Source: Mesobacillus jeotgali (GTDB lineage: Bacteria; Bacillota; Bacilli; Bacillales; Cytobacillaceae). Taken from it: a stretch of 64,000 nt of DNA. A program made the translations under genes and the position numbers. Shown here piece by piece: positions 7,166 through 29,879 of the stretch. Positions within the stretch are counted from its first letter, which is position 1. Each line of letters begins with the position of its first letter. The stretch spans positions 2,044,501-2,108,500 of the forward strand of contig NZ_CP134494.1 of NCBI RefSeq assembly GCF_031759225.1, given 5' to 3'. The notes under the pieces were generated by a model. It had not been told where the DNA came from. It did not search any database and was given only the letters and a program-made list of their open reading frames with translations.

Positions 7166-7244
7166 AATTTTTCCTCTCAATAATATTATTCGACATAATT
7201 ACCTTTATATTACCAAATATATAAGTTTTACAGTATATTTTTTT

Positions 7245-7252
7245 GGTAGAAT
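7245..7252 (+). promoter_or_regulatory. Extended -10 promoter element of drmA
   Basis: TTGGTAGAAT contains a TGn extension and a TAGAAT hexamer. It lies 42 bp before the drmA start, and the -35 is poor. Similar TGn elements precede the HelD-like gene (20742) and the MazG-like gene (29882). Confidence 0.5.
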
Positions 7253-7293
7253 AGTATTAGTTACTTAACTTGTAGATGAAAGAGGTGCTGTAA

Positions 7294-10200
7294 TTGAGTA
7301 ATGAAACTCGGAAGGCTCGTGAAGAATTGTTAGATCGCTTAAGGAACGAGTTGGTTGGACCTGAGATAGATCAAGAAAAACTGGAGAATAAACCTTTACA
7401 GAGGTATCTTGCAGGAATACTCTGGCCAATGAAATCCAGTGTAGCTTCTATAGAAGATGAAAATGAATTGGTACATGGAAAAGAAACCTCTCAGGAATCA
7501 ATTGAACAAATTGCTCCCCTGGCAAAAGCAATGAATCCATCTGCAATAGGAATATCTTTTTTAGTAGATAAAGCACAGCCGAAAATTAATGTAGATGTCA
7601 CCTTTGGAATGTACGAAGAATTAGATGATAATTACTGGCAGAGAATCCCGTTAGAATTAAAGAGTTATACAATTGATTTACATAAAGATTTAGGTAAAAA
7701 GCATTCAAAAAGTATTTTAAAAGATGATAATAACAATCAAGAATTAAAAGAAAGAATTCGACTAGAATGGATTGTAAGAGAATATAAAAATAGTTTTGCA
7801 GTAAGTCTGTTTTTAGTTAATAGGTATGTGCAAGAAGTAGATGAATATGAGATTGATCATAAATGCGTCTTCCAGCCAAAAATCAAAGTCAGAAGTGAAA
7901 GTTCTGAATCAATAATGGTTCGTAATGCATTTTCAGATAATGAGAAGGGCTTTCAAGATGATGATACTCAGTCGAATGAGCTTTTATACCGAAACGAATC
8001 AGTTTTTGCAGTAGGACATAATGTTTCTGTTATGTGGAATCAGGTCAATCAAGAAACCGTTAAGGCCGGATATCTTGAGACTGAGATCATACCTGCTCAC
8101 GAAATACCGATGGTAATACCTCCAGATTGGAATAAGGGCGGTACTTTAAACATGGAGGAACTTTCGGTTATAGAAAATCCTTCAAAAGTTAGAGAAGCCT
8201 TACAACCATTAATTAATGAATATAGAAAATGGATCCGACAAAGACGAAATGAAATAGATCTACTTGAATCTAAATATGTTGAAACGGCCAATAAACATAT
8301 TGATAATTGCGATAAATCCGTCGATAGGATGGAAAAGGGTCTGAATAAAATAGAGAATGACGCCGATGTATTCAAAGCTTTTATATTCGCAAATAAAGTT
8401 ATGGCTAAACAAAGATCCCATAGTGAGGCTATTGAAAAAAAGATATCACCTGATAAAGTTCAATCTTTCTGGAGGCCATTTCAAATTGCTTTTTTCCTTC
8501 AAAACATTGAAGGAATTGTGAATCCTAGTTCTAATGATCGAAAAATCGCAGACCTTCTTTGGTTCCCAACGGGTGGAGGTAAAACGGAGGCATATCTTGG
8601 ATTAGCGGCATTTACCATTGGATATCGACGATTGAGTAACATTGAAGGGTATCGTACTGATGCAGGGGTGTCAGTCATAATGCGATATACTTTGAGACTT
8701 TTAACAATTCAACAATTCCAAAGGGCAACTGCTATGATTTGTGCATGCGAAGAGCTAAGAAAGGAGTCACCTGAAAACTGGGGAGAAAATAGATTTAGAA
8801 TCGGCCTCTGGGTGGGTGATAGCAGTGTGCCTAATAGTTATGACGATGCAAAGAAAGTTATTTCAGCAAGAGAAGAAGCTATAAAGAACAATAATAATGA
8901 TAGTTATTCTAGCAATATTAAAGGTACTCCAGTTCAGTTAGTTTCTTGCCCATGGTGTGGAACAAAGCTGGTCGACAAGGATAATCCAAAAGTGTTTTTA
9001 AGTGCTTATAAAGCTAAGGACAAAAAAAGAAGAATTTTGATTTCTTGCCCTAATAGAAATTGCTCATTCCATAGACATAATTCGGATGGGGAAGGGTTAC
9101 CCGTATTGCTTACCGATGAGGAAATATATCGTCTTTTACCGGACATGGTTATTGCGACTGTTGATAAATTTGCAAGAATGCCATGGCAGCCAGAGATACA
9201 AAATTTGTTTGGTAAAGTAAAAGGAGAAGTGGATCACTGGGGTTTTATTTCCCATGGCAAGAACAAAATAGAACAAAATAATGCCAAGAATGTTGCTAGA
9301 AGTTTGGTAATTACTAATAATCAGCCTATTCATCCACCAAATTTAATTATTCAAGACGAACTACATTTAATATCAGGACCGCTTGGAACTATGGTGGGAT
9401 TATATGAAACAGCTGTTGACTATTTATCTTCTATAGAATTTGAAGATGAAGTAATTGGACCAAAAGTAATTGCATCAACTGCTACGATAAAAAATGCTAA
9501 TAAGCAAATCGAGGGACTATATAAAAGGGATACACAAATTTTCCCAAGCCCGGGTTTGATCCATAATGACTCCTTTTTTGCTAGACAAAGACCAATTGAA
9601 GAAATGCCGGGTCGCGTTTATGTTGGAGTCTTTGCTCCTGGAAGAAGTATGAAAACAACTTTACTAAGAATTATGGCGAATCTCTTGTCAAGTGTTACTG
9701 CAATGGAAAAAGACTATGACCATAATAGTCTCGATCCTTATCAAACGATCGTTGGTTATTTTAATAGTTTGCGTGAACTGGGTGGAGCAGTACGTTTAAT
9801 AGAGGATGACGTACCAGCTCGTATGAAAACTCTTGAAAATCAATTTGATGAAGGTAGTATTTATAAGTTTATCAAACGAGAATTGGAACCGGATGTTCCA
9901 GAACTAACAAGTCGAATTGACTCCGGAAAAATCCCTGAACTTCTTGATAGATTGCAACAGGTATATCATAGCGATGGGGATATTAAACCTGTAGATGTCC
10001 TATTGGCCAGTAACATGATTTCAGTTGGAGTGGATGTTTCACGTTTGGGATTAATGGTAGTTAATGGTCAACCAAAAACTACAGCGGAATTTATACAATC
10101 AACAAGCCGTGTTGGGCGGAAATATCCTGGTTTTATAGTTACTTCATATAACTGGGCAAGGCCGAGGGATATTTCCCATTACGAAGAATTTTACGCTTAC

Positions 10201-10632
10201 CATTCAGCATTATATCGTTATGTAGAGCCGATTAGTGTCACTCCGTTTTCATCAAGAGCACGAGATAAAGGACTGGCGGCTGTTTTGGTTTCAATGTTTA
10301 GACTTGGCAATCCAAGCCTTTCACCCAATAATGCAGCAAGCAATTTAGAAACTGTTAATGAACAAATAGAAAATATATTCAAGATATTCACGGATAGAGC
10401 TCGTTCAATGAATGTAGACCCGAGTGAAGTAGAGAGACACTTAGAAAAGCTAAAAGATGATTGGGAAACAGACGCAGAAAGAAGTGTGTTGAATTATTCC
10501 AAAAAGGTAAAAGATAATGAATCAAACTTACTTTATCCTTCAGGGAAAGAACGAGCTTCTGGAACATTTAAGACCCCTAATTCAATGAGAGACGTAGAAC
10601 CTACTGCTGGAATCTACATTAGAAAGGATTGA
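7294..10632 (+). CDS. drmA: DISARM helicase DrmA
   Basis: Large SF2-type helicase (1112 aa), core motor of DISARM, which restricts incoming phage DNA. It carries Walker A FPTGGGKTEA at about 423-432, a zinc ribbon (CPWCG at about 551 and a CPNRNC partner), QDELHLISG as Walker B (about 687) and ASTATI (motif III). SVGVDVSRLG and STSRVGRKYPG (about 936) mark the C-terminal RecA domain. The start is TTG with AGAGGTG upstream. It overlaps or abuts drmB and drmC in one operon, the standard A-B-C order. In characterised systems DrmA and DrmB form the DNA-binding complex. The identification rests on combined length, motifs and the two recognised neighbours. Confidence 0.88.
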   Translation: MSNETRKAREELLDRLRNELVGPEIDQEKLENKPLQRYLAGILWPMKSSVASIEDENELVHGKETSQESIEQIAPLAKAMNPSAIGISFLVDKAQPKINVDVTFGMYEELDDNYWQRIPLELKSYTIDLHKDLGKKHSKSILKDDNNNQELKERIRLEWIVREYKNSFAVSLFLVNRYVQEVDEYEIDHKCVFQPKIKVRSESSESIMVRNAFSDNEKGFQDDDTQSNELLYRNESVFAVGHNVSVMWNQVNQETVKAGYLETEIIPAHEIPMVIPPDWNKGGTLNMEELSVIENPSKVREALQPLINEYRKWIRQRRNEIDLLESKYVETANKHIDNCDKSVDRMEKGLNKIENDADVFKAFIFANKVMAKQRSHSEAIEKKISPDKVQSFWRPFQIAFFLQNIEGIVNPSSNDRKIADLLWFPTGGGKTEAYLGLAAFTIGYRRLSNIEGYRTDAGVSVIMRYTLRLLTIQQFQRATAMICACEELRKESPENWGENRFRIGLWVGDSSVPNSYDDAKKVISAREEAIKNNNNDSYSSNIKGTPVQLVSCPWCGTKLVDKDNPKVFLSAYKAKDKKRRILISCPNRNCSFHRHNSDGEGLPVLLTDEEIYRLLPDMVIATVDKFARMPWQPEIQNLFGKVKGEVDHWGFISHGKNKIEQNNAKNVARSLVITNNQPIHPPNLIIQDELHLISGPLGTMVGLYETAVDYLSSIEFEDEVIGPKVIASTATIKNANKQIEGLYKRDTQIFPSPGLIHNDSFFARQRPIEEMPGRVYVGVFAPGRSMKTTLLRIMANLLSSVTAMEKDYDHNSLDPYQTIVGYFNSLRELGGAVRLIEDDVPARMKTLENQFDEGSIYKFIKRELEPDVPELTSRIDSGKIPELLDRLQQVYHSDGDIKPVDVLLASNMISVGVDVSRLGLMVVNGQPKTTAEFIQSTSRVGRKYPGFIVTSYNWARPRDISHYEEFYAYHSALYRYVEPISVTPFSSRARDKGLAAVLVSMFRLGNPSLSPNNAASNLETVNEQIENIFKIFTDRARSMNVDPSEVERHLEKLKDDWETDAERSVLNYSKKVKDNESNLLYPSGKERASGTFKTPNSMRDVEPTAGIYIRKD

Positions 10633-10637
10633 TTCCT

Positions 10638-12425
10638 TTGAATAAAAAAGTTGGAGAATTAAGACCAAGTCAGTTTATTACAACTTTCGGACCTGGGTCC
10701 ATTGTTGATTTACCTGATTTTTCAGTAATCATAGGTGGGATTGATAAGTGGAACACTTTAGATGTCTCAAGAGCAGCTATTATTGAGGAACCACGCTTAA
10801 AGAGCAAGTTGAAGATAAAACAGATTAAATCAATACCAGTAAAAGACAACGATGAAATTGGCACTATTCCAGCGTATCGATTTCCCGAGTATCATGTTTG
10901 CCCTAATTGCAGGAAGTTAGGCAAAAGAGATGGTAGAGATTTCTTTGAAGAAGAAGGAGTTTTATATTGTAAAAACCCTGAAAGTGAGAAAGGTCCTTGC
11001 CCAAAAGTTAAAACTCACCCGGTTCGATTTATTACTTCATGTAAAAATGGACATATTCAGGATTTTCCCTGGTTCTGGTATGTGCATAAGGGACCAAAAC
11101 CTGATTCTAAAAAATGCAAACTGTATTTAATAGATGAAGGGAAAACTGGATCGTTAAAAGATCTAGTAGTAAAGTGTAGTACATGTAATAAAGAAAGATC
11201 GATCAGCGAAGCACTATCAAATAAAAAAATATTAGGAAAGTGTTTAGGAGGAAGACCATGGTTGGGAGATAAAGAAGAAGGATGTGAACAGGAAACTGAA
11301 CTGCTTTTAAGAGGAGCATCTAACTTATATTTTTCAGCCATTGAGAGTTCTATAGTGATTCCGCATAATTCTAATGAACTTGATGATTTTATAAGAAGTC
11401 ATATTGATTTTTCTGATGAAGAATTAATTAATAATAGACCAATTTTTGACATGGTTATGAAAAGAGATTCAGATATATTACGTATAGGACTTGATAAAGC
11501 ATGGGACATTGTCCAACGCTTGAAAGATAGCAGTAATATGGAGCAGGATATTAGAACTCCGGAATATGAAGCCTTACTTACTGAGCATAATCAGGTTAAT
11601 GATATCAATTTTCAAACAGAAAAAGAAGAAGTACCAAGAAGGTTTAATAAATTTATTACTAATCTTATACGTGTGAAACGCTTGAAGGAGGTAATGGTAC
11701 TAAAAGGTTTTACGAGAATCCATCCACTACCAGATTTGACAGCACGTCTTTCAGAGCATCCTGTTTCTGGAGAAATTAATGATTCAATCCAGTTAGCACC
11801 GATAAGTAAAGAGAAGTCAGATTGGCTACCCGGGGTTGAATCTTATGGAGAAGGAATCTTCCTGACAATTGATGATCAAAGATTACTAAAGTGGGAAGAA
11901 AAAAATAAGAAGTATGGACAGGGTATGGAAGTTGCTCACAAAAAAATGTTTAGGGAACGGGATTTTCCAAATGAAACAATTCCTGCTTTTCCTGGGTTAA
12001 GGTATGCACTACTTCATACTATTTCGCACGCATTAATTAGAGAACTTACAATACATTCAGGATATTCATCATCAGCATTAAAGGAAAGAATTTATTCTGA
12101 CTCTGAAAATGGAATAGCAGGAATTTTAATTTACACTTCAACAGTTGATTCTGAAGGAAGTCTTGGAGGGCTTGTTGAATTAGGCAAGAGAGATAAATTT
12201 GAATCTATCCTTGCACGTGCACTTGCTGCCTCAAGATATTGTTCTGGCGACCCTCAATGTGCTGAACATGATGCTGAACAATTTACTGATGTTAATGGTG
12301 CTGCTTGTCATAGTTGTATGCTTATTGCGGAAACTTCTTGTGAAAAGTCTAATAGGTACCTTGATCGCTCTCTGTTAGTTGATATTGTTTCCAATTCAAA
12401 AAGGGAGTTTTTCGAACTTGAATAA
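10638..12425 (+). CDS. drmB: DISARM protein DrmB (DUF1998)
   Basis: Partner of DrmA (595 aa). The N-terminus, GELRPSQFITTFGPGSI followed by a DLPDFSVI stretch, is the family hallmark. Cysteines near residue 88 (CPNC) and further on (YCKNP, GPCPK, CKNGH) form zinc sites. The C-terminal DUF1998 domain contains HTISHALIRE, YTSTVDSEGSLGGL, a CSGDPQC motif and CHSCMLIAETSCE with conserved cysteines. TTG 10638 is preferred, since AAAGGA lies about 9 nt before it. TTG 10629, overlapping the drmA stop, is the alternative. The tight junction shows translational coupling with drmA. Confidence 0.88.
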   Translation: MNKKVGELRPSQFITTFGPGSIVDLPDFSVIIGGIDKWNTLDVSRAAIIEEPRLKSKLKIKQIKSIPVKDNDEIGTIPAYRFPEYHVCPNCRKLGKRDGRDFFEEEGVLYCKNPESEKGPCPKVKTHPVRFITSCKNGHIQDFPWFWYVHKGPKPDSKKCKLYLIDEGKTGSLKDLVVKCSTCNKERSISEALSNKKILGKCLGGRPWLGDKEEGCEQETELLLRGASNLYFSAIESSIVIPHNSNELDDFIRSHIDFSDEELINNRPIFDMVMKRDSDILRIGLDKAWDIVQRLKDSSNMEQDIRTPEYEALLTEHNQVNDINFQTEKEEVPRRFNKFITNLIRVKRLKEVMVLKGFTRIHPLPDLTARLSEHPVSGEINDSIQLAPISKEKSDWLPGVESYGEGIFLTIDDQRLLKWEEKNKKYGQGMEVAHKKMFRERDFPNETIPAFPGLRYALLHTISHALIRELTIHSGYSSSALKERIYSDSENGIAGILIYTSTVDSEGSLGGLVELGKRDKFESILARALAASRYCSGDPQCAEHDAEQFTDVNGAACHSCMLIAETSCEKSNRYLDRSLLVDIVSNSKREFFELE

Positions 12426-13200
12426 TTATCAAGACAAACTTAATAGATTTGTGCTTGCATGTATCAAAAACGAAAATTGTGTCATTTTGGATAGGCTACA
12501 GGAATACCTTGAGAATTATGATATGAGAAATGGGTATACCAGAGTAGTTTCCGATCTACAATTACCATTTGATATAGAAATTATTCTTTATGAAATGCTA
12601 AAAGAAGCATATTCAAAGAGACTGAATTCTACCAGGATTATAGAAGATATATCCTTATCTAGCAACTTGGCAATAAGGATGTTTGAGGAACAACCCAGTT
12701 TATCATCAGTATGGACTGGACCTTTATTTGATAGAAGAATAATGGCGCTAAAAACATATGAAACAGTTAAGGATTTAATAGATTCCGCTCAAAATGATAT
12801 ATTAATTGTCGGTTATAGTTTTTCTTTTAAATATGAGGAAGTTCTTAATGTGTTAAAAAGTATAGAAAACGCTGTTAAACGAAAATGTAATGTTAATTTT
12901 ATCGTTAATAAAAAAGAAAGTAATTTAAGGGAAATAGTATCCAACTGGAAAGAAGAGAAACATAAATTAAATATCTTTCAATGGAAAGGAAGTCCGGAAA
13001 AAGACTTTACCAGTTTACATGCAAAACTTATAATTGTTGATCAAAGGGAAATGCTTATTACTTCAGCCAACTTTTCTTATCATGGATTTAAAAAAAATAT
13101 TGAAACCGGCGTATTAATATGTAATCACACAGTTGTTAGTGAGATAAGGAATCAATACCTTTCTTTAATTAGAAATAATCATTTAGAAAGATACTTTTAA
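12418..13200 (+). CDS. drmC: DISARM phospholipase D-like protein DrmC
   Basis: PLD-superfamily protein of 260 aa, third gene of the DISARM core. A single HKD motif is visible near residue 200: HAKLIIVDQREMLITSANFS (H-x-K-x4-D followed by S-x-N). One motif per chain implies that a dimer would be needed to build a full active site, as in other single-HKD nucleases. The start TTG 12418 overlaps the end of drmB by 8 bp and has AAAGGGAG at good spacing. An upstream extension to 12379 lacks support. A strong terminator follows directly. In reported DISARM systems drmC is dispensable in some tests, so its exact role is open. Confidence 0.85.
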   Translation: MNNYQDKLNRFVLACIKNENCVILDRLQEYLENYDMRNGYTRVVSDLQLPFDIEIILYEMLKEAYSKRLNSTRIIEDISLSSNLAIRMFEEQPSLSSVWTGPLFDRRIMALKTYETVKDLIDSAQNDILIVGYSFSFKYEEVLNVLKSIENAVKRKCNVNFIVNKKESNLREIVSNWKEEKHKLNIFQWKGSPEKDFTSLHAKLIIVDQREMLITSANFSYHGFKKNIETGVLICNHTVVSEIRNQYLSLIRNNHLERYF

Positions 13201-13249: not shown

Positions 13250-15134
13250 GTGCGCCCGGCATGGGTGCAGTCTATAGGGTGTAAGTCCCGAGCCATGAAG
13301 GCAGTAGTAGTGGTTAGCTTAACGCAAGGGTGTCCGCGGTGACGCGGAATCTGAAGGAAGCGAGCGGCAAACCTCCGGTCTGAGGAACACGAACTTCATA
13401 TAAGGCTAGGTACCATTGGATGAGTTTGCAGAACAAAACAAAGTCCTTACTGCCGAAGGTGGTACAGAGTAAATGAAGCAGATAGATGGAGGGAAAGACT
13501 GTACTCTTACCCGGGGAGGTCTGATTGGAAAGCCAAGTACACTTGGTAACCTATCTAGCAATAGATAGCTGAACAATCAGAAGTCAGCAGAGGTCATAGT
13601 ACTTTACCGGCTCGAGACGGTAAGGGAAGGACTGAACAATTAGGAAGAACGAGAACTAGGCATACAATTCCTGTGTAGAAGCAGACAATCCGAAAGGACT
13701 TACTTGAAGGAGGAAGTGGTGAATCCACAGGGGACTTCATGAGGGTGGAGCAGGAATAACATAATTAGATTTCTACGTTCACGTCGAAAGGAAATATCAC
13801 ATGTTAATGAATCTGATTCTATCACGGGAAAACTTAATAGAAGCACTTAAACGTGTGGAGAAGAACAAAGGGAGTCACGGCATAGATGGAATGTCCGTAA
13901 AATCCCTACGAAGACATCTCTATGAGAACTGGGACACCCTTTGTGATTCTTTAAGGAAAGGTACCTATCAACCTAACCCAGTACGTCGAGTCGAAATCCC
14001 GAAACCGAACGGTGGAGTAAGGTTACTTGGAATACCTACCGTGATAGATCGTTTCATCCAACAGGCAATCGCCCAAGTTTTAACTCCGCTTTTTGACCCA
14101 ACCTTCTCGGAACATAGTTATGGGTTTAGGCCAAGCCGAAGAGGCCATGACGCTGTACGTAAAGCAAGGGGATATATAAGTGAAGGTTACAGATGGGTGA
14201 TTGACATGGACTTGGAGAAGTTCTTTGACAAAGTGAATCATGACAAGCTGATGGGGATATTGGCAAGCAGAATCCAAGACCGATTGGTCTTGAAGCTAAT
14301 TCGAAAATATCTCCAAGCAGGAATCATGATAAATGGTGTAGTCTACGATGCAGAAGAAGGAACACCACAAGGAGGTCCCCTGAGCCCTCTTCTTTCGAAT
14401 ATACTTTTGGATAAGCTTGATAAAGAACTAGAAAGGAGAGGTCACAAGTTTGTCCGATACGCCGATGATTGTAATATTTACATGAAATCGAAGAAAGCTG
14501 GAGAACGAGTAATGAACTCCATTACATGCTTCATTGAGCAGAAATTAAAGCTCAAAGTAAACAGAGGGAAATCAGCGGTTGACCGCCCGTGGAAACGAAA
14601 ATTCCTTGGCTTTAGCTTTACGGTTAATAAGAAACCGAAGGTTCGAATAGCCAACGAAAGTGTTAAAAGGCTAAAAGCTAAAATACGAAAGTTAACATCC
14701 CGTTCTAAACCAATCCCCATGGAAGTTAGAATTGAGAAATTGAATCAATTTCTAACGGGATGGTGTGGATATTTTGCATTAGCTGATACACCAAGTAAAT
14801 TCAAAGAATTTGATGAGTGGATTAGAAGAAGACTCCGTATGATTGAATGGAAACAATGGAAGAACCCGAAGACAAGAGTAAGAAAACTCAAAAGTCTTGG
14901 CGTTCCAGACCAAAAGGCATACGAATGGGGAAATTCCAGAAAGAAATTTTGGAGAATTGCCTCAAGTCCAATCTTACACAAAACCCTCGATAACTCTTAT
15001 TGGAGTCATCGAGGGCTCAAAAGTCTATATCAAAGATATGAATTTCTACGTCACACTTAATTGAACCGCCGTATACCGAACGGTACGTACGGTGGTGTGA
15101 GAGGTCGGGGGTTAGTCACCCCCTCCTACTCGAT
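13250..15134 (+). mobile_element. Group IIC intron with maturase
   Basis: The 5' end GTGCGCCCGGCATGGGTGC is a canonical group II start, and it sits right after a terminator T-run. The 3' part holds a domain V-like hairpin (GAACCGCCGTA ... TACGGTGGT, about 15062-15100). A domain VI-like stem (CGGGGGTT ... ACCCCC) with a bulged A follows, ending near CTACTCGAT. The 3' boundary at about 15134 is approximate. The encoded protein belongs with class C maturases, which agrees with the insertion site. The intron lies on the coding strand between drmC and the methyltransferase gene, so splicing would restore a normal transcript. Confidence 0.9.
13801..15060 (+). CDS. ltrA: Group IIC intron reverse transcriptase/maturase
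   Basis: Multifunctional protein (419 aa) that aids splicing and copies the intron RNA into DNA during mobility. RT motifs are clear: IPTVIDRFIQQAI, YGFRPSRRGHDAV, IDMDLEKFFDKVNHD, EGTPQGGPLSPLLSN, and the catalytic YADD at about residues 219-222. A maturase (X) domain and a short basic C-terminus follow, and no HNH endonuclease is present, as usual for class C. The reading is very close in style to the thermostable Geobacillus class C enzyme. It seems intact, so the intron may be active. Confidence 0.95.
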   Translation: MLMNLILSRENLIEALKRVEKNKGSHGIDGMSVKSLRRHLYENWDTLCDSLRKGTYQPNPVRRVEIPKPNGGVRLLGIPTVIDRFIQQAIAQVLTPLFDPTFSEHSYGFRPSRRGHDAVRKARGYISEGYRWVIDMDLEKFFDKVNHDKLMGILASRIQDRLVLKLIRKYLQAGIMINGVVYDAEEGTPQGGPLSPLLSNILLDKLDKELERRGHKFVRYADDCNIYMKSKKAGERVMNSITCFIEQKLKLKVNRGKSAVDRPWKRKFLGFSFTVNKKPKVRIANESVKRLKAKIRKLTSRSKPIPMEVRIEKLNQFLTGWCGYFALADTPSKFKEFDEWIRRRLRMIEWKQWKNPKTRVRKLKSLGVPDQKAYEWGNSRKKFWRIASSPILHKTLDNSYWSHRGLKSLYQRYEFLRHT

Positions 15135-15194: not shown

Positions 15195-16625
15195 ATGACG
15201 AAAGTGAAGATTTTAGATCTATTTGCTGGTGGTGGCGGATTTTCTGCAGGGTTTGCAAATTCCAGGAATAGTGACTTAGAGTTTGAGTTACACCGTGCCT
15301 TAGAAATAAACGAGGAAGCCTGTTTAACTCTAGAAAACAGATATGGTTCTCATAGAGTTATTAAAGGGGATATAACTAAACAAAGTGTAAAAGATAGAAT
15401 ATTAAATGATTGCAAAGGTGTCGATGTAATAATAGGTGGTCCTCCTTGCCAAACTTTTTCATTAGCTGGGCCTGCAAGGTCAGGATCCATAGAGATGAGA
15501 GAACAATTAAGGAATGATCCCCGTAATACACTCTATAAACACTTTTTAGAGCTTGTTGAAAAACTTAAGCCACCCTTTGTTGTTTTTGAGAATGTTGAAG
15601 GAATGGTATCTAAAAAAGTTGAAACAGACTTAAGTCAAAAGCAGGAAAAGGTTATTGAACTTGTTTGTGATGAACTTGAAGCATTGGGTTATCATACTAA
15701 AGTTGATGGGCAAGATAGAAGGTACCAGGTACTTAATTCAGCTGATTATGGAACTCCACAGGTTAGAAAAAGGATTATCATAATTGCTAACCGATTTAAC
15801 ATTGATAACCCAATGCCTATCCAGAGTCATGTTAGTAACTATCGAACTATAGGGGATGCAATTAAAGATTTGCCGATAAGACTTCCTATAATTAGTACTT
15901 CTAGAATGGAAAAGTTAAAAAACATAGAGACCTTAAAGAAGTATTACCCTGTCAGTTTAGATGCTTTTATGGATCGTATGGAAGACTTAACATTTCATGT
16001 CCATAGTGAACAACAAGGTATAAAAGAATTAAATTACCAATTAAAGGATTTTTATGAAAATATCAAGACAAGGAAAAACTATAAAATTAATGCATTGCAT
16101 AACTTTATAAACTTTTATAATTTATTGGTAGAGAAGCTTGAGATAAACCGTTTCGGAGAAAATCCATTTAATCTGTCCCACCAATCAAGAGAACATAATT
16201 TTAGAGATGTAGTTATTTTTTCATTAATGAAACAGGGTAGTAATTCAGCAAGGTTCATGAATCCAATTAATGAGGATTATGATATTGTACTTGATGAGCT
16301 CTATCCATATGCAAGGTCCAAACATAAAGATACTTATGTAAAACATTCTTGGGATAGACCTTCTAATACGATACTGGCTCATATGGAAAAAGATGGATTA
16401 AAGTTTATACATCCTGAACAACCAAGAACATTTACCCCTTATGAAGCAGCATTATTACAATCCTTTCCTGATGATTATAGGTTTTATGGTGGCAGAAATG
16501 CACAGTTTAGACAAATAGGTAATGCGGTACCTCCAAAGATGGCTGAAGCAATAGGTAATGCTATTTTAAAAACCATATCGGACAACAGAAATATAATTAG
16601 ACCAGAGATTATAGAGGTAAAATAA
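15195..16625 (+). CDS. drmMII: DISARM C5-cytosine DNA methyltransferase
   Basis: Transfers methyl from S-adenosylmethionine to cytosine C5, marking host DNA. All key motifs are present in order: motif I DLFAGGGGFSAGF (residues 8-20), motif IV GGPPCQTFS with the catalytic Cys (about 80-88), ENVEG (motif VI, about 131), QVRKR (motif VIII, about 188) and QIGNAVPP (motif X, about 440). The 476-residue length leaves a target-recognition region of about 200 residues. It follows drmABC in the same direction, separated by the intron. A C5 methylase with drmABC defines class 2 DISARM in the literature. The target sequence cannot be read from the protein. Confidence 0.88.
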   Translation: MTKVKILDLFAGGGGFSAGFANSRNSDLEFELHRALEINEEACLTLENRYGSHRVIKGDITKQSVKDRILNDCKGVDVIIGGPPCQTFSLAGPARSGSIEMREQLRNDPRNTLYKHFLELVEKLKPPFVVFENVEGMVSKKVETDLSQKQEKVIELVCDELEALGYHTKVDGQDRRYQVLNSADYGTPQVRKRIIIIANRFNIDNPMPIQSHVSNYRTIGDAIKDLPIRLPIISTSRMEKLKNIETLKKYYPVSLDAFMDRMEDLTFHVHSEQQGIKELNYQLKDFYENIKTRKNYKINALHNFINFYNLLVEKLEINRFGENPFNLSHQSREHNFRDVVIFSLMKQGSNSARFMNPINEDYDIVLDELYPYARSKHKDTYVKHSWDRPSNTILAHMEKDGLKFIHPEQPRTFTPYEAALLQSFPDDYRFYGGRNAQFRQIGNAVPPKMAEAIGNAILKTISDNRNIIRPEIIEVK

Positions 16626-16632
16626 TTGATGA

Positions 16633-16661
16633 CCTACCAATTTTTATTGGTGGGTTTTTTT
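16633..16661 (+). terminator. Terminator after the methyltransferase gene
   Basis: CCTACCAAT pairs with ATTGGTGGG around TTTT, followed by seven T. Confidence 0.85.
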
Positions 16662-16742
16662 GTTATTAAGGATGTTTAAAATATATACATTTGGATTTTA
16701 AAGAAAAATAATGGGTAAATTATTGTATTACTAAGTGAAAAA

Positions 16743-16748
16743 GGTACG
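16743..16748. repeat. Target site duplication, left copy (GGTACG)
   Basis: The same GGTACG occurs immediately outside the right transposon end at 20027-20032, as expected for a 6-bp target duplication. Confidence 0.75.
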
Positions 16749-16864
16749 TGTTTTTGACGCCATTAATTATCCGAAAGTTGACGGTATTGCCTGTCCAGAA
16801 TTAGTCGATTATAATGTCCGTATATAATTCGAAACATTTCGACATTTATTCTGGAGAAAGGAAA

Positions 16865-16917
16865 AGACGTCCCCCATAAATGTATAACTGCGCCAACAGT
16901 TATACAGGAGACGTCCC
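16865..16917 (+). other. Hairpin flanked by direct repeats in transposon leader
   Basis: GTATAACTG (16882-16890) pairs perfectly with CAGTTATAC (16897-16905) around CGCCAA. AGACGTCCC is repeated on both sides (16865 and 16909). It lies between the left end and the first transposon gene, and could be an attenuator-like control element or a protein site. Confidence 0.4.
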
Positions 16918-16957
16918 ACCAAAAAGTATATGGTTATTGTATCAGATTATCAGCTGA

Positions 16958-17488
16958 TTGAAAACACTCATACTGGAGTTTTTAGTTAGGGGTGCGGGGA
17001 GGATTCCTTCCCCATGCTGTGGTAAAGACATGTTGGTTAGAGGTACAAAGAATCGAAAAGCCAAGGATCATACAGGTCAGAGTAAAACATATAACATCCG
17101 AAGATTGCAGTGCACCAATTGTCAGACCATCCATCATGAACTTCCAGATTTATTGATTCCTTATAAACGCTATGAGGCTGAATGTATCGAAGACGTTCTT
17201 ACGAACCCGTCCGCCCATATTGTTGCTGCCGATGATTCCACTCTTTCGAGATGGCACGGCTGGTTTCATCAATTTGTGGATTATTGGATTGGCTGTTTGA
17301 ATTCCATCATGATCAGGACCAACCAGGGAAATATCCCCCAGGATGTCACGTCCAAATGTTCAGGGACCGCACTTCAAAGGATAGGACGCTTGGCAGGAGA
17401 TGCCAATGGATGGCTGACAAGAATTGTCCGGCCCATCGTAAATATTAATTTATGGATACATACCCGTTCCGCATTCATTGTCCAATAG
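16958..17488 (+). CDS. DUF6431-like zinc-binding transposon protein, N-terminus possibly frameshifted
   Basis: First gene of the transposon (176 aa). A zinc finger is formed by CCGK near residue 20 and CTNCQ near residue 52. The rest is a basic, Trp-rich region that may bind DNA. Such proteins accompany this type of transposase and ATPase, but their role is not established. The annotated TTG start lacks a good ribosome site. An alternative N-terminus begins at ATG 16930 (MVIVSDYQLIENTHTGVFS) and hits TAG just before the zinc-finger frame resumes one base out of phase. One extra base between about 16983 and 17000 would explain this, so the gene may be damaged. Confidence 0.55.
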   Translation: MKTLILEFLVRGAGRIPSPCCGKDMLVRGTKNRKAKDHTGQSKTYNIRRLQCTNCQTIHHELPDLLIPYKRYEAECIEDVLTNPSAHIVAADDSTLSRWHGWFHQFVDYWIGCLNSIMIRTNQGNIPQDVTSKCSGTALQRIGRLAGDANGWLTRIVRPIVNINLWIHTRSAFIVQ

Positions 17489-17532
17489 CACCTGATTTAC
17501 ACTCGTGATAGACACAGAGAGGAGAGTGTATC

Positions 17533-18888
17533 ATGAGTGATCATAAGAAATCAGAAGAATTGGCAGTGCATCGTTTTCAGCTAATATCCCCTTTATTAGC
17601 AGAGGGGCTTGACGCTGGGAAAGTAAAGGAATTAAGAGACCAGATAGCGAAGGCCAGCGGTCTTTCAGAAAGAACCATCAGGCGATATTTGGCTCAATTT
17701 CAGGAAGATGGGTTTGGGGGACTAAAGCCACAAGGAAGAAAAGGTGCTCGAAAGTCTGAGGCTATCCCTCCTCATTTATTGGAACAGGCAATCCTTCTGC
17801 GTAAGGAAGTGCCGAGCCGGAGCGTGGCTCAAATCATACAGATACTCGAATGGGAAGGGTTGGCTGAACCAGGGCAGATCAAAAGATCAACGCTCCAGGA
17901 AAAGCTCGCTGAAAAAGGTTACAGCACCCGGCATATGCGACTCTATTCCCAGACAGGAGTAGCTGCCAGAAGATTTCAGAAGCGACATCGCAACCAACTC
18001 TGGCAGTCAGATATCAAGTATGGTCCCTACTTGCCGATTGGTCCGAATGGAATAAAGAAACAAGTGTATCTTGTCGCCTTTATCGATGACGCCACCAGGT
18101 TTGTGCTTCACGCAGCTTTCTATCCTACCTTGGATTCAAGGATCATCGAGGATGCCTTCCGCCAGGCTATCCAGAAGTATGGTGTTCCAGAGGCTGTTTA
18201 TTTTGATAATGGAAAGCAATATCGAACCAAATGGATGTCGCGTACCTGCTCAAAAATAGGCACCCGCCTTACTTACACACGGCCGTACTCAGCTGAATCA
18301 AAAGGGAAAATTGAACGCTTCAATAGAATCATAGATTCATTCATTAGTGAGGCTGTCATCGAAAAGCCCAATACACTTGATCGTCTGAATGAGCTTTTCC
18401 AAGTGTGGCTCACAGAGTGTTATCAGAATAAGCCTCATTCTGCACTTGGGGAGAAAATCAGCCCGGAAACGGCATTTCGTTCAGATAAAAAAGCGATTAG
18501 GTTCATCGATCCTGATACCTTGAGTAATGCATTCCTCCATTGTGAAACAAGGAAAGTCGATAAATCAGGATGCATAAGTTTCATGGATCAAAAATATGAG
18601 GTCGGCCTGGCTTTCATTGGACGACAGGTTGAGGTGGTTTATGATCCTGCGAATATCGAGGAGCTTACCATTGAGTTCGAGGATCATACTCCTTGGAAAG
18701 CCAAGAAACTTGTCATTGGGGAAAGAGCTGGGAAGCGTCCTGCATTACCTGAGCACCTGCAGGTGCAGGGTGTAGAATCTTCAAGACTATTAAAGGCAGC
18801 TGAACGAAAGAACCAGGAACGCCTAACCGAACAGAAACCTGCCGTGACCTTCCGTGCCGTTTGGAAGGAGGAAGATTCCCGTGTTTGA
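17533..18888 (+). CDS. DDE transposase, TnsB/Mu-type (rve integrase core)
   Basis: Catalytic transposase (451 aa). The N-terminus has helix-turn-helix segments (SERTIRRYLAQF at about 45). The retroviral-integrase fold shows the catalytic triad: D in LWQSDIKYG, D in YFDNGKQY and E in SKGKIERFNR. A beta-rich Mu-type C-terminal domain follows (about 330-430). ATG 17533 has GAGAGGAGAG upstream. The ATPase gene starts inside its last codons, so the two are translationally coupled, the usual arrangement for transposases that need an AAA target-selection partner. Confidence 0.9.
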   Translation: MSDHKKSEELAVHRFQLISPLLAEGLDAGKVKELRDQIAKASGLSERTIRRYLAQFQEDGFGGLKPQGRKGARKSEAIPPHLLEQAILLRKEVPSRSVAQIIQILEWEGLAEPGQIKRSTLQEKLAEKGYSTRHMRLYSQTGVAARRFQKRHRNQLWQSDIKYGPYLPIGPNGIKKQVYLVAFIDDATRFVLHAAFYPTLDSRIIEDAFRQAIQKYGVPEAVYFDNGKQYRTKWMSRTCSKIGTRLTYTRPYSAESKGKIERFNRIIDSFISEAVIEKPNTLDRLNELFQVWLTECYQNKPHSALGEKISPETAFRSDKKAIRFIDPDTLSNAFLHCETRKVDKSGCISFMDQKYEVGLAFIGRQVEVVYDPANIEELTIEFEDHTPWKAKKLVIGERAGKRPALPEHLQVQGVESSRLLKAAERKNQERLTEQKPAVTFRAVWKEEDSRV

Positions 18889-19681
18889 AGCATTCTATGA
18901 AATGGACAACACTCCTTTCGCCAGAGATCTTCCGACTGATCAATTGTATGATTCCTCCATGGTGCAAGAAATCCTTGGTAGGCTGAAGTACACAGCTGAA
19001 AGACAGCTTTTTGCCGTTCTGAGTGGGGATAGTGGTACTGGAAAGACCACAACCATCCGTAAGTTTGTGGACAAATTGGATAAAGGGAAATTCCATATCC
19101 TTTACCTGTCCGACTCTAAGTTAACGCCTCGTCATTTTTACAAAGGTCTTTTGGAACAGTTAGGCTCTGAAGCGAAGTTTTATCGAGGAGATGCAAAACG
19201 GCAGCTTCATCGTGAGATTGAATTAATGAAAGGCATACGAGGGCTACAACCTGTAGTGGTAGTGGATGAAGCTCATCTTCTGGACCGGGAAATGCTTGAA
19301 GAGGTTCGTTTCCTACTGAACTTCAAAATGGATTCGCAAAGCCCGATGGCGCTTATCCTGGTCGGTCAAAGTGAATTATGGGATCGGCTTCGACTCCAAT
19401 CATACGCAGCCATACGCCAAAGAATCGATATCCAGTTTCAGCTAGGACATCTCGACCGTGCCCAGGTTGAAGAATATGTTTCTAGGCACCTTCGATATGC
19501 CGGTGTTGATCAACCAATATTCTCTGATGGAGCACTTGACGAGATTCATCGCTTCTCTGGTGGTGCCGCAAGGCTCATTAATAAGCTCTGTACACATAGT
19601 CTTCTCTATGGTTCACAAAATGGCCGAAGGATCATTGATGATCATATGATCAAGCAAGTCATCCAGGGGGAACTTTCATGA
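18881..19681 (+). CDS. ExeA/TnsC-like AAA ATPase
   Basis: Target-selector or transposition-activator ATPase (266 aa). Walker A SGDSGTGKTTT is near residue 48, Walker B VVVDEAHLL is near 128, sensor 1 region LILVGQSELWDRL follows, and a C-terminal winged region ends the chain. The opening FYEMDNTPFARDLPTDQLY is typical of transposon-borne ExeA-like proteins. GTG 18881 is chosen, since AGGAGG is 9 nt before it. It overlaps the transposase gene by 8 bp. In related systems this protein polymerises on target DNA and calls in the transposase. Confidence 0.88.
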   Translation: MFEAFYEMDNTPFARDLPTDQLYDSSMVQEILGRLKYTAERQLFAVLSGDSGTGKTTTIRKFVDKLDKGKFHILYLSDSKLTPRHFYKGLLEQLGSEAKFYRGDAKRQLHREIELMKGIRGLQPVVVVDEAHLLDREMLEEVRFLLNFKMDSQSPMALILVGQSELWDRLRLQSYAAIRQRIDIQFQLGHLDRAQVEEYVSRHLRYAGVDQPIFSDGALDEIHRFSGGAARLINKLCTHSLLYGSQNGRRIIDDHMIKQVIQGELS

Positions 19682-19914
19682 AAACCCGCTGGAAAGAGAT
19701 GAATTATAATGAAGAATTGGATTGTTGGGTTGTGTTTTGGGGAGAGAACTCCGGCTATAAGATGCGATGTGGTGAATGGTTTGATTTACATCTAGGAAAT
19801 GGTCGGACCCTTTCCTGCCGCCTGGAGCTGGGCAGAGATTGGTATATTCTTACCGGCCGAAATGACGTTAGATTCTATCTTAAGAAAAATGAGACCTATC
19901 AAGTTGATTTGTAA
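19678..19914 (+). CDS. Small DUF5348-like protein of the transposon
   Basis: Acidic, beta-rich protein of 78 aa (Trp at several positions, CRLELGRDWYI strand pair). It overlaps the ATPase stop by 4 bp (ATGA), so it belongs to the same operon. Its role is unknown. The name rests on resemblance by eye and on the context. Confidence 0.6.
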   Translation: MKTRWKEMNYNEELDCWVVFWGENSGYKMRCGEWFDLHLGNGRTLSCRLELGRDWYILTGRNDVRFYLKKNETYQVDL

Positions 19915-20026
19915 AAACTTTTGGGAAGCATGTGAACTGCTTCCCTTTCAATTTTGGACAGTAGTTCCGTCAGTTTTAGGACAATTAACATCGTCAAGTT
20001 CTGGACATTGTAGAACGTCATTAACA

Positions 20027-20032
20027 GGTACG
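20027..20032. repeat. Target site duplication, right copy (GGTACG)
   Basis: Matches 16743-16748. The glycosylase ribosome site AGGAGG begins just a few bases later, so the insertion stopped short of damaging the gene. Confidence 0.75.
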
Positions 20033-20048
20033 GCAGGAGGATAGGTAA

Positions 20049-20711
20049 ATGGAATGTTTAGAAGCAAATAAAGAAAAAAAAATAGTATTTTTAAGGAATA
20101 ACTTAATTGAGTGGGGCAAAACGAATTATGCTGCCTTCCCATGGCGGGAAACTAATAATAAATGGCACGCCTTAGTTGCTGAAATTATGTTACAAAGAAC
20201 AAACGCAGAACAAGTTGTACCCGTTTATGAATCATTTGTTGAGTCGTATCCATCTCCAAAAGAATTTTTATTTGAGAGAAATACTAATATTTTTCAAAGC
20301 CTCGGCTTACATTGGAGAGAAGCTCAACTTCGTTCTCTTGCAAGGGAAATTTATAATCTGGGTTATATACCTGAAGATAAAAATTCACTACTAAAATTAC
20401 CAGGTGTTGGCGACTATATTGCTGCAGCATTCCGTTCTTTTCATTTAAATATTAGAGATGTAATAATCGATAGCAATGTTGTCCGTTTGTATGGCAGGTA
20501 CTTTGGTTTTGAAACGGATCCCGAAACTAGGAGAAAAAAGTGGTTAAAAGAACTTGCAGCAGAAGTTACCCCTTACATTAATCATAAAGAATTTAATTAT
20601 GCCCTCTTAGATTTCACAAGAAATATATGTAAACCTCAGCCGCAACATAAAGAATGTTTACTAAGAAACCTGTGTTGTTTTGCAATAGATAACAATGATA
20701 GTAAATACTAG
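20049..20711 (+). CDS. HhH-GPD DNA glycosylase, likely T:G mismatch type (Mig.MthI-like)
   Basis: Base-excision repair glycosylase (220 aa). FPWRETNNKWHALVAEIMLQRT resembles MutY, with the Glu of AEIMLQ. The helix-hairpin-helix is LPGVGDYIAAAF, and the conserved Asp is in IDSNVVRLYGRYFGF. The residue matching the Schiff-base Lys of endonuclease III is Tyr, as reported for the T:G glycosylase Mig.MthI, itself encoded beside a C5 methylase. Before the transposon entered, this gene lay about 140 bp behind the C5 methylase gene. Both facts favour repair of deaminated 5-methylcytosine. The iron-sulfur cluster region is unusual: C-x5-H-x2-C-x5-C, with His where a second Cys is expected. Simple MutY-like A:G activity remains possible. 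ATG 20049 follows AGGAGG by 8 nt. Confidence 0.78.
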   Translation: MECLEANKEKKIVFLRNNLIEWGKTNYAAFPWRETNNKWHALVAEIMLQRTNAEQVVPVYESFVESYPSPKEFLFERNTNIFQSLGLHWREAQLRSLAREIYNLGYIPEDKNSLLKLPGVGDYIAAAFRSFHLNIRDVIIDSNVVRLYGRYFGFETDPETRRKKWLKELAAEVTPYINHKEFNYALLDFTRNICKPQPQHKECLLRNLCCFAIDNNDSKY

Positions 20712-20737
20712 AAACCCTCACCAAACGCTGTCGAAAT

Positions 20738-20764
20738 TTGGTATAATATTTGAAGATATACCAA
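20738..20764 (+). promoter_or_regulatory. Promoter with overlapping inverted repeat before HelD-like gene
   Basis: TTTGGTATAAT is an extended -10. Its left part forms TTGGTATA (20738-20745), which pairs with TATACCAA (20757-20764) across 11 nt. The repeat covers the -10 and the likely start point, so it could be a repressor site or a 5' RNA hairpin. Confidence 0.45.
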
Positions 20765-20785
20765 TAAAAGTCTGGGTGAGTGGGA

Positions 20786-23020
20786 ATGAAAAAAGATATT
20801 ATACATGAAGAACAAAACACATTGGATAAAACTGTCATTAAAATAGACGGAATAATTAAATCATTAGGCGATGAATTAAAAAATAATACGACTAACGATG
20901 TGTTGCTTGAAAGAACCAATCGAAGGTTTATTAATGATTATCTGGATGCACGAAAAAACCCTTATTTTGGCCGTATTGATACATATGAAGATGGCAAGAG
21001 GGAAACTTATTATATCGGTTACACAAGTGTTGCTAAAGATAAAAATCAGGACATAATTTATAGCTGGAAATCTTCTGTTGGTGATCTCTTTGCCCAATTC
21101 CATGGAGGAGAAGGAAATATTGTAATAGATAGAGGGCCAAACGAAAAATACGACTTTAATGTCCTTTTAAAGCGATCACTCTTAATTGAAAAATTAAGGG
21201 TGAAAAAATATTCGGATACAGTTAGTGAACAGGCTAGAAAAGAGCTAGGTACAGAGGTAGACAATGTCTTATTTGATGATTTTCTAATGGATATTTTAGA
21301 TGGAAGAAATAACGAAACACAGTTAAAAGATATTGTCATGACTATTCAGAAGGAACAAAACGAAATTATAAGATTACCGATAGACAATTCAATCATCGTT
21401 CAAGGTGTAGCCGGAAGTGGTAAATCATCTATTGCTTTAACACGTATTTCTTATTTGCTGACCAGATATAAAGAAAAGTTAACGCCCGCAGATATAGGTA
21501 TACTTGCACCTAATGAGATGTTTATCAGCTACATACAATCGGTTATGCCAACGCTTGAGATTGAAAATATTCCTCAGTTTACTTTTAAAACGCTTTCAAA
21601 AACTGTTTTGAAAAACTTGGATGTTGATAATTTTAATGATCCAATTAATTCGTTGAGCGGGTTAGTTAATGGTGATTCGACTGTTGCAACTAATTATAAA
21701 ACGTCTATTGAATTTAAAGAGAAAATTGATTTTTACCTTGAAGAGTTTAAAAACCAATTCGTTCATAATATTAAGGAGTTTAGATACTTTGACACGATCA
21801 CTAATACAGATATTATTTTGTCGCGTGATCAGATTCTTAATCGTTATGAGGACCTTAGTTACTTATCATTAGTAAAGAGGAATCAAGAGATACTGAAATA
21901 TGTAGAAAAGTGGGTTGATTCACTTTTAATCTCAAAGCAGGAGGAACTCAAAAAGGAGTTCGAGTCTGTAATAAATACAATTTTCAATGGCATACCTAAA
22001 ACTGCTTCCTTAAGGAAACAAACCTATGAGTCTATCGAAAAAGTATATTCATACAGACAAAAAGTTCTAAGAGATGAGCTTAATCAAAGGTGGAGAGATT
22101 ATAAGAGTAATTGGGAAAATTTTGAATTATTTACGTTATATCAGAGGATACTTATTCTCGAAGATTTATACCATGGTAAAGTAACTACTGTAACAGCGTT
22201 TAAAAAACATTTGGAATATGATGATCTTACTCCATTAATGTATCTGGAAATTTTATTGAATGGTGTAAGTAAGCAATATCAGCATCTCGTTGTAGATGAA
22301 TCCCAGGATTTGAGTCCTTTCCAAATCCATGTTCTAAAACTTCTTTCCAAATCTATGACCTTGTTGGGAGATGTTACACAAAACATATACTTGGAAAAAG
22401 GAATAAATGATTGGACAAAGTTAATAGAAAAAGTCTTTCTAAATGATAAAGTTAGATTGATAGAAATTAATACTAGCTATAGATCAACTAATCCTATAAT
22501 GGAAGGAGCCAATTTTATTGCAGCAAATGCACAGATAAATGCTCCGAAAATTGTACCAATCGGAAGAAAAGGGGATAGGATTTCAATAGAAAAGATATAC
22601 GACCCACTTCGTTTACTGGACCATATTATCGAAACAATAAAATCATTACAGAAGAAAGGTTTTAAGAAAATAGCTGTTGTTCACAAAGATTTAAAACGGT
22701 CTGTTTCTTTACATGAAAGATTAGTTAAACAATTTTCCAGTATTCAATTGGTCACTAATTCGATCCAAACAGTTAATAAAGATGTAATTATTATTCCTTC
22801 TTTCTTAACAAAAGGCCTGGAGTTTGATGCAGTAATAATTCCAAATGCCTCAAAAAGAAACTACGATGAGAATGAACTTGATGCCAAACTATTGTTTGTT
22901 TCAATGACAAGGGCTCAGCATTATGTGAAGTTATTTTACCATCAGGAGTTAACGACTTTGTTGAATGGAATTGAGATTCCTAAAGTTGAACGGGAAGAAG
23001 AAGATTATTCATTCCTATAG
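20786..23020 (+). CDS. HelD-like superfamily 1 helicase (defence-island paralogue)
   Basis: Protein of 744 aa with the HelD plan: an N-terminal helical arm, the RNPYFGRID-like segment (here KNPYFGRIDTYEDG), Walker A GVAGSGKSS at about 206-214, VVDESQDLSPFQ, TSYRSTNPI and a C-terminal KGLEFDAVII ... SMTRAQ. HelD proteins use ATP to pull stalled RNA polymerase off DNA. Here the segment corresponding to YDWRAPVSSVYYD of the canonical gene at 44286 is changed to YSWKSSVGDLFAQF, so the polymerase contact may differ. ATG 20786 follows GGGTGAG by 5 nt. The gene lies between a DNA glycosylase and an AIPR-like gene, pointing to a specialised role. Confidence 0.75.
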   Translation: MKKDIIHEEQNTLDKTVIKIDGIIKSLGDELKNNTTNDVLLERTNRRFINDYLDARKNPYFGRIDTYEDGKRETYYIGYTSVAKDKNQDIIYSWKSSVGDLFAQFHGGEGNIVIDRGPNEKYDFNVLLKRSLLIEKLRVKKYSDTVSEQARKELGTEVDNVLFDDFLMDILDGRNNETQLKDIVMTIQKEQNEIIRLPIDNSIIVQGVAGSGKSSIALTRISYLLTRYKEKLTPADIGILAPNEMFISYIQSVMPTLEIENIPQFTFKTLSKTVLKNLDVDNFNDPINSLSGLVNGDSTVATNYKTSIEFKEKIDFYLEEFKNQFVHNIKEFRYFDTITNTDIILSRDQILNRYEDLSYLSLVKRNQEILKYVEKWVDSLLISKQEELKKEFESVINTIFNGIPKTASLRKQTYESIEKVYSYRQKVLRDELNQRWRDYKSNWENFELFTLYQRILILEDLYHGKVTTVTAFKKHLEYDDLTPLMYLEILLNGVSKQYQHLVVDESQDLSPFQIHVLKLLSKSMTLLGDVTQNIYLEKGINDWTKLIEKVFLNDKVRLIEINTSYRSTNPIMEGANFIAANAQINAPKIVPIGRKGDRISIEKIYDPLRLLDHIIETIKSLQKKGFKKIAVVHKDLKRSVSLHERLVKQFSSIQLVTNSIQTVNKDVIIIPSFLTKGLEFDAVIIPNASKRNYDENELDAKLLFVSMTRAQHYVKLFYHQELTTLLNGIEIPKVEREEEDYSFL

Positions 23021-23074
23021 ATATGAATTTGAAAAAATATTACACAGACATATAGCAATCAGGGGGAATACAGA

Positions 23075-24301
23075 GTGGAACAAACTATGAATAACGTACA
23101 AGTTATAGACTTTACTGTTACTAACGGAATTCTGTCAGAAGTAATTGAAGAAAAAGATCAAAAAATTAATTATTATAAATTCACCGCTTTATGTACCGAT
23201 ATCCAGCGGACCAGTAAAGAAGCAAACCCACGTAAACAGGATATATCAAAAAAGAATAAAGTAGCTTCCAAAATAAGAGAGACTTTGTTGAATCCTGATA
23301 TTTCATTTCACACTCGCAATAAAGGAATAACTTATTTTGCAGATAGGTTGGAAGTAGAATATAACAGTAACGGTTCATGCACCGTCAAGATTTATTTTAC
23401 AGATCCATCATCACAGGGAAGTGTGGATGGAGGACATACTGAAATGGTTATTCTTGATGAAGCGGGTAATTATCCAGAATGGAAAAAGGTTAATATAGAA
23501 GTTATGACTGGGATAAAAAGCCCATTCACTCATGTTTCAATTGCCGAGTCTAGGAACACTGGTGCTTCCGTAACAGCAGAAACTCTGGATGAGCTTAGTG
23601 GTATGCATGGAATACTAAAAGATCACCTTCAGGGAACTCCATATGAAGACAGGGTTTCATTTAAGCAAAATGAAGATAAAGAAGACGGCAAAGACCTTAC
23701 TATTACATTAATTAAAAAACTTTATGAAACTTTTAACATTAGAGATTATGCTGATAAGGATCCTAAAGGTGTATATAGTTCTAACCAGGGAGTAATTACC
23801 AAGTATCGGAAAGAGTATGATGCACACGGAACTTCAACAGATAACGTGTATGAAAAGTTAAAATATGTATCAAATGACATTTTCAAACTTACCAATTACA
23901 TTCATGAAAATTTCAAGGATCTATACAACCGGTATGGCAAAGGAAACTATCTGGCGAATAAATGTGCTGACTATAAAGAGGGATCCAGAAAAGAATTAGT
24001 ACTTTTTGGGCAGCCAGAACAATATTTGGATTATAAAGTTCCAAATGGCTTGCTATTTCTGGCTTTATCAGGTTTTCGACAGTTTTTGAAAGAAAACGAA
24101 GAAGGTTATTACGAATGGAAGTTCGACATCTTTGAAGAAGATAAAATTAAGGGGCTATTGGAAGTTGTATTCCAGGTATTGGCTTCTGGAATGAGAGACA
24201 ATGATAATAACCCTCAGAGTGTCGGAAAAAATGCGATGGTCTGGCAGGTAATGAGAACTCAGGTCTTCATGAAAGCATATATGAATCAGTGGGTTAAATA
24301 A
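23075..24301 (+). CDS. AIPR/DGQHR-like abortive infection protein
   Basis: Protein of 408 aa. FHTRNKGITYFADRLEV (about 72-88), the following VDGGHTEMVILDE and the ESRNTGASVTAETLDEL stretch resemble the AIPR family. The related DGQHR/ParB-like fold uses an N-G-I strand and a D-G-x-H/Q-T turn. AIPR proteins are linked to phage resistance, but their chemistry is poorly known. The start is GTG, with AGGGGGA at about 9 nt. ATG 23087 is an alternative. It lies 54 bp behind the HelD-like gene in the same direction and before the McrB-like gene, with a terminator in between. The family call is by motif resemblance. Confidence 0.6.
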   Translation: MEQTMNNVQVIDFTVTNGILSEVIEEKDQKINYYKFTALCTDIQRTSKEANPRKQDISKKNKVASKIRETLLNPDISFHTRNKGITYFADRLEVEYNSNGSCTVKIYFTDPSSQGSVDGGHTEMVILDEAGNYPEWKKVNIEVMTGIKSPFTHVSIAESRNTGASVTAETLDELSGMHGILKDHLQGTPYEDRVSFKQNEDKEDGKDLTITLIKKLYETFNIRDYADKDPKGVYSSNQGVITKYRKEYDAHGTSTDNVYEKLKYVSNDIFKLTNYIHENFKDLYNRYGKGNYLANKCADYKEGSRKELVLFGQPEQYLDYKVPNGLLFLALSGFRQFLKENEEGYYEWKFDIFEEDKIKGLLEVVFQVLASGMRDNDNNPQSVGKNAMVWQVMRTQVFMKAYMNQWVK

Positions 24302-24342
24302 TCAATTTAGTTAAATATTAAAAAAATCGAAAAAAATCTATA

Positions 24343-24374
24343 AAGCCCTTGTACTCTTGCAAGGGTTTTATTTG
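24343..24374 (+). terminator. Intrinsic terminator before mcrB-like gene
   Basis: CCCTTG pairs with CAAGGG, then TTTTATTTG. It separates the AIPR unit from the McrBC-like unit. Confidence 0.7.
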
Positions 24375-24410
24375 TATAATTAAGGCAGTTTTGGAAAGAG
24401 GTGAAATACT

Positions 24411-29565: not shown

Positions 29566-29580
29566 TGGGTCTGCCTTTTT
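29555..29580 (+). terminator. Terminator overlapping the end of the nuclease gene
   Basis: AGGCAGAC pairs with GTCTGCCT, followed by five T. The stop codon lies in the loop. Confidence 0.85.
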
Positions 29581-29594
29581 GCTATATCTACTTT

Positions 29595-29831: not shown

Positions 29832-29879
29832 AAATAACACTCCCTTTTTCTATGAATATATCACTTGGAATAGCTAAAT

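Follow-up and report, generated by a model that had tools for sequence, protein, structure and literature searches.

Gene content of the locus

The window analyzed here is a 64,000-nt stretch of the genome of Mesobacillus jeotgali (positions 2,044,501 to 2,108,500 of NZ_CP134494.1; the genome, G000, is one contig of 4,634,919 bases), and it contains a DISARM defense locus with a small HhH-GPD glycosylase gene behind its cytosine methylase gene (Table 1). The first-pass annotation of this DNA had described a C5 methylase followed by a candidate thymine-DNA glycosylase, and both genes were recovered, the former as a DrmMII protein with a PF00145 domain and the latter as an HhH-GPD (PF00730) protein, for which T:G excision is still a prediction. 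We consider it quite probable that the latter is a monofunctional mismatch glycosylase similar to Mig.MthI, which limits the mutagenic cost of the cell's own C5 methylation.

DrmA, DrmB together with DrmC, and a methylase of the DrmMII kind are all present, which identifies the locus as DISARM; DrmC scored below the NCBIfam DrmC_I cut-off (118.9 vs. 133). Class 2 of DISARM is defined by DrmE. No DrmE was among the PADLOC families listed (at most 25 per protein) for the open reading frames (ORFs) at 2004–13200 of the window, while the same library does detect DrmE in another locus (L101), and hence the locus, judged by gene content, is filed as DISARM and not as class 2. Two UvrD/GajB-like helicase genes (3881–7180) lie divergent from drmA, as they do in 11 other DISARM loci (L017, L093–L100, L141, and L142), and this pair is a possible unrecognized accessory of DISARM.

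The DISARM region bears two mobile insertions, because a group II intron with a maturase lies between drmC and drmMII in addition to the transposon between drmMII and the glycosylase gene. The inverted ends of the transposon agree at 26 of 40 positions, and none of 500 shuffles of the flanks did as well. Once the element and one copy of the 6-bp repeat are removed, the gap between drmMII and the glycosylase gene is 139 bp, in agreement with the earlier estimate of about 140 bp. The presence of a target-site duplication indicates that the transposon entered as a simple insertion, and not through a deletion that brought the two genes together.

Table 1. Features of the DISARM locus and of the adjoining glycosylase gene
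Feature	Position in window	Strand	Evidence
drmA, DISARM helicase	7294..10632	+	NF038325 1262 bits, cut-off 950; PADLOC DrmA
drmB (DUF1998 family)	10629..12425	+	NF038324 594.5 bits, cut-off 240
drmC, PLD-type nuclease	12379..13200	+	PADLOC DrmC E 2.2e-95; PF13091
Group II intron encoding a reverse transcriptase/maturase (ORF 13801–15060), drmC/drmMII interval	13333..15134	+	Rfam RF02001, RF01998, RF00029; PF00078, PF08388; outer ends unmapped
drmMII, C5-cytosine DNA methylase	15195..16625	+	PADLOC DrmMII E 3.2e-203; PF00145 E 1.6e-60
Predicted intrinsic terminator, directly 3′ of drmMII	16631..16656	+	1 found vs. mean 0.1 in shuffles; fold z-score −3.86
Target-site duplication GGTACG, left copy	16743..16748	.	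Flanking repeat
Transposon, methylase/glycosylase interval	16749..20026 (3,278 bp)	+	Pfam; inverted ends; flanking repeat
DUF6431 gene of transposon	16958..17488	+	Pfam
rve transposase gene of transposon	17533..18888	+	Pfam
AAA/TniB gene of transposon	18854..19681	+	Pfam
Target-site duplication GGTACG, right copy	20027..20032	.	Flanking repeat
HhH-GPD glycosylase like Mig.MthI, predicted T:G/U:G	20049..20711	+	PF00730 27.6 bits, cut-off 26.2; 220 aa

Resemblance of the glycosylase to Mig.MthI

Alignment of the protein with Mig.MthI, MutY, and Nth (endonuclease III), together with a structure comparison, bore out the resemblance to Mig that had been proposed earlier. The closest known structure by both sequence and fold was that of Mig.MthI thymine-DNA glycosylase (PDB 1kea), with 32% identity in the structural alignment. 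The HhH-GPD fold and the catalytic Asp are both present, and most of the Mig pocket is kept, with F27, E42, R47, A50, Y126, and D144 of Mig found as F30, E45, R50, A53, Y123, and D141. The proposal had rested on a Tyr at the position of the endonuclease III Lys. This Tyr is real, as Tyr123 aligns with Tyr126 of Mig and with the Lys of both Nth proteins (2/2), but it is not diagnostic, as it is also present in 9 of 11 MutY rows, and it was noted in BsMutY (partial text of PMC2714593). To judge from the alignment, the informative sites are F27, R47, A50, and L187 of Mig rather than the Tyr.

Database names suggest that the protein could instead be a MutY-like adenine glycosylase located near a methylase by chance: several source names are "A/G-specific adenine glycosylase", its best NCBIfam family is mutY, and MutY structures come next after 1kea in the structure ranking. 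However, the mutY score of 118.6 bits is under the cut-off of 286.5, the Val45 and Gln182 residues of MutY are replaced by Ala53 and Tyr184, and the protein has 220 aa, compared to 384 aa for the MutY-clade gene of the same genome (L002). Moreover, the 11 MutY rows form one clade (support 100/99) and the window protein is outside it, so that the placement inside MutY, which would have spoken against the first-pass annotation, did not occur. These data make a MutY identity very improbable. In the best tree MutY falls between the window protein and Mig, while an approximately unbiased test does not reject a single clade of Mig and the window protein (p 0.469). A PADLOC model named "Type II nicking endonuclease" already fits the window glycosylase. 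The excision of T and U opposite G is thus predicted from the comparison with Mig. If this prediction is right, a number of small proteins now named A/G-specific adenine glycosylase probably act on T:G instead and belong to methylase-linked loci.

Linkage to C5 methylases

The genomic neighborhoods of related glycosylases showed a C5 methylase gene within 5 kb in 23 of 27 named loci, and within 1.5 kb in 20 of them (the glycosylases of two of these loci, L019 and L021, are identical). A lack of such linkage in other genomes, named at the outset as a finding that would undermine the idea, was therefore not observed. No C5 methylase was present in the flanks of 14 MutY-like controls (Fisher p 3e-6; flanks unequal), while one was nearby in all three relatives on viral contigs and in all three more distant members from the phylum sample (L144, L145, and L146). 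In the order sample of 397 genomes, the glycosylase scored above 300 bits in four and DrmA was above its cut-off in 17; three of the four were among the 17 (p 2.6e-4), with the gene no more than 10 kb from drmA in each. In the phylum sample (398 genomes) only G000 exceeded 300 bits, and three others reached 175–190 bits.

The genome of the window holds two PF00145 genes (E ≤ 0.001) and two members of the glycosylase family (E ≤ 1e-40), and no Vsr was found in it. Both methylases and both glycosylases pair up, at a net distance of 139 bp in the window and of 2.7 kb in the second locus, which suggests more than chance. The second pair (L006, G000:C1:2782000-2801000; glycosylase at 8675–9307 of the locus) adjoins a DrmA/DrmB-like pair, whose DrmA is below the cut-off. 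Loci with similar DrmA/DrmB-like pairs carry Vsr (L112, L116, and L120) or a short Vsr-like frame (L118). Members of the glycosylase family occur with many C5-methylase systems, and not with DISARM alone.

Glycosylase or Vsr in DISARM loci

To compare DISARM loci, 21 loci with DrmA above the cut-off were examined, of which 17 came from the order sample and four were added. The same glycosylase was found in three (the window, L095, and L098) and Vsr in six (L096, L097, L100, L105, L140, and L142), while the two never occurred together within the stretch examined. One more locus (L141), in which no C5 methylase was found, carries at 7582–8280 a different HhH-GPD protein of the DR2438 type (NF053634, 110 bits, below the cut-off of 400). 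Apart from the window, two DISARM operons have the glycosylase gene 22–36 bp 3′ of a methylase of the same type, and in a distant one it follows drmC. Outside the 21 loci, Halobacillus halophilus (L017) and genome G913 (L145; DrmA NF038326, 1625 bits) carry the gene within a DISARM operon, both having been found via the glycosylase. A survey of DISARM loci for a linked HhH-GPD gene thus returned L017, L098, and L145, and Vsr in others. The suggestion that DISARM could carry its own anti-mutator gene is supported in that the gene is present in these other DISARM operons, but not as an exclusive trait, since in M. boroniphilus it is found with MZA genes.

Exchange between the two genes is also seen next to methylases of the window type (55–62% identical), whose neighbor is the glycosylase in three loci (the window, L098, and L017), Vsr in three (L096, L097, and L105, convergent in the latter two), and neither in one (L099). 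When the repair state (three states) was mapped onto a quickly built DrmA tree with 23 rows, at least nine changes were required. A like exchange occurs beside McrBC (glycosylase in L016, Vsr in L142 and L149) and beside MZA (glycosylase in L091, Vsr in L152). Cytosine methylases and Vsr-type endonucleases have been described in MORC-type restriction operons (PMC2292703, partial text), and the word "glycosylase" is absent from that part of the paper. In our reading, the place next to a C5 methylase that other DISARM loci give to Vsr for repair is taken here by the glycosylase.

The location of the gene among defense genes could also suggest an anti-phage effector, that is, a restriction-type or modified-base glycosylase attacking phage DNA, as glycosylases can act in defense in the cases of Brig1 (PMC11078745, partial text) and R.PabI (PMC10273834, partial text). 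Such a role appears very unlikely, because the slot is common to Vsr, which is a repair enzyme, the Mig pocket residues are largely kept, and two loci (L009 and L013) have a restriction-enzyme gene of their own, located in the interval from methylase to glycosylase.

Contrary observations and the history of the gene

Several observations weigh against a Mig-like companion of the DISARM methylase. The pocket is not identical to that of Mig, because Leu187 of Mig is Tyr184 (Tyr in 28/34) and Met190 is Leu187 in the window protein; for this reason we describe the protein as working like Mig and do not claim strict Mig membership. In the window protein, as in some of its kin, His replaces the second Cys of the iron–sulfur cluster. 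The activity itself is predicted from sequence and a structural model. Few genomes carry the family (three of the 193 at family rank). Neither repair gene was seen in 11 of the 21 DISARM loci, and among the 15 of these loci that have a C5 methylase, six showed no repair gene. Glycosylase and Vsr are not strictly exclusive, because both occur in genome G044, 11 kb apart; the glycosylase gene there lies next to DrmA/B/C-like genes, at 152 bp from a C5 methylase. The terminator that follows drmMII suggests that the glycosylase gene is here probably outside the DISARM transcript. Finally, the window from 20123 to 30195 is 90% identical to M. boroniphilus DNA, where the order is a Dcm-like methylase (on the opposite strand), MzaB–E, glycosylase, HelD, AIPR, McrB, and McrC, which puts the gene behind MZA genes and 8.6 kb from the closest C5 methylase that was detected there.

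Because the M. boroniphilus match begins inside the gene, a recombination boundary is placed near its 5′ end. The glycosylase could consequently have come with the downstream HelD–AIPR–McrB–McrC block and met DISARM by recombination, which would make its linkage in the window accidental. The shared gene order behind the MZA genes, the lack of any DrmA/B/C match in the M. boroniphilus stretch, and the terminator are in line with this history, but we regard it as rather doubtful, because the gene is present in DISARM operons without the downstream block (L098, L017, and L145), because the gene's own bins (80–85% identity) do not exceed those of the downstream block (85–97%), and because the transposon was not the product of a joining deletion. 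Besides, a recombinant history is compatible with a role as methylase companion. Inheritance of the window copy with DISARM, and not with the block, is modestly favored; in the window, DISARM has probably become joined to another block, with the glycosylase serving whichever C5 methylase is near.

The downstream block (20780–29565; HelD/UvrD-like, AIPR, McrB-like, and McrC-like genes, common to M. boroniphilus at ~90% DNA identity) is possibly a defense module of its own. Farther away, the window contains a JetA-type (Wadjet) gene at 50239–51747 (PADLOC E 3.4e-207), behind which come ORFs coding for 387, 1368, and 431 aa.

Proposed role and comparison with known systems

From its homology, DrmMII is expected to methylate cytosines and thereby mark self DNA. 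Deamination of 5-methylcytosine yields T and creates a T:G mismatch, and some of the 5-methylcytosines made by DrmMII would share this fate. The glycosylase would then excise a T (or U) that faces G. By comparison with Mig and from the model, catalysis would depend on Asp141, and the pocket would include Glu45, Arg50, Ala53, and Tyr123. Because there is no Schiff-base Lys, the product would be an abasic site, from which the host apurinic/apyrimidinic endonuclease and polymerase could restore C:G. The glycosylase would accordingly be a maintenance accessory of the methylase, outside the interference machinery.

As 5-methylcytosine is a mutation hot spot, a need for repair is to be expected in defense systems that rely on it. 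We lean slightly toward the broader idea that methylation-based defense (DISARM, MZA, McrBC with a methylase, and type II systems) has a slot in which Vsr and a Mig-like glycosylase can replace each other to repair deaminated 5-methylcytosine, that the cost of self-marking helps to decide which C5-methylase systems a genome keeps, and that the window is one instance. If the proposed role of the glycosylase is right, the locus would illustrate how a cell meets the cost of the 5-methylcytosine marks in its genome on which DISARM relies. Mig.MthI and Dcm–Vsr are already established, while a Mig-like glycosylase gene in DISARM, alternating there with Vsr, appears to be new; a literature search, with most subscription journals outside its coverage, returned no title describing it. 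The Vsr domains fused to YprA helicases (PMC12458937, partial text) are a separate matter.

Compared to DISARM (drmA, drmB, drmC, and drmMII), the window locus has all four genes, lacks DrmE among the listed families, and has a mismatch-repair gene added. MutY is alike in fold and in catalytic Glu and Asp, while the window protein belongs to a separate clade, without Val45 and Gln182 and without the C-terminal domain. Dcm–Vsr very short patch repair also combines a C5 methylase with an adjoining T:G repair gene, but the repair proteins are unrelated, since Vsr is a nicking endonuclease and the window protein a base-removing glycosylase. Mig.MthI, encoded on the Methanothermobacter plasmid pFV1, shares the fold, the catalytic Asp and Glu, F27, R47, A50, and Y126, and its gene likewise has a C5 methylase in the vicinity (at a distance of 1.4 kb in L035); its cluster spacing is CX6CX2CX5C, in contrast to CX5HX2CX5C in the window protein, and its partner is a type II system, whereas that of the window protein is the DISARM methylase DrmMII.
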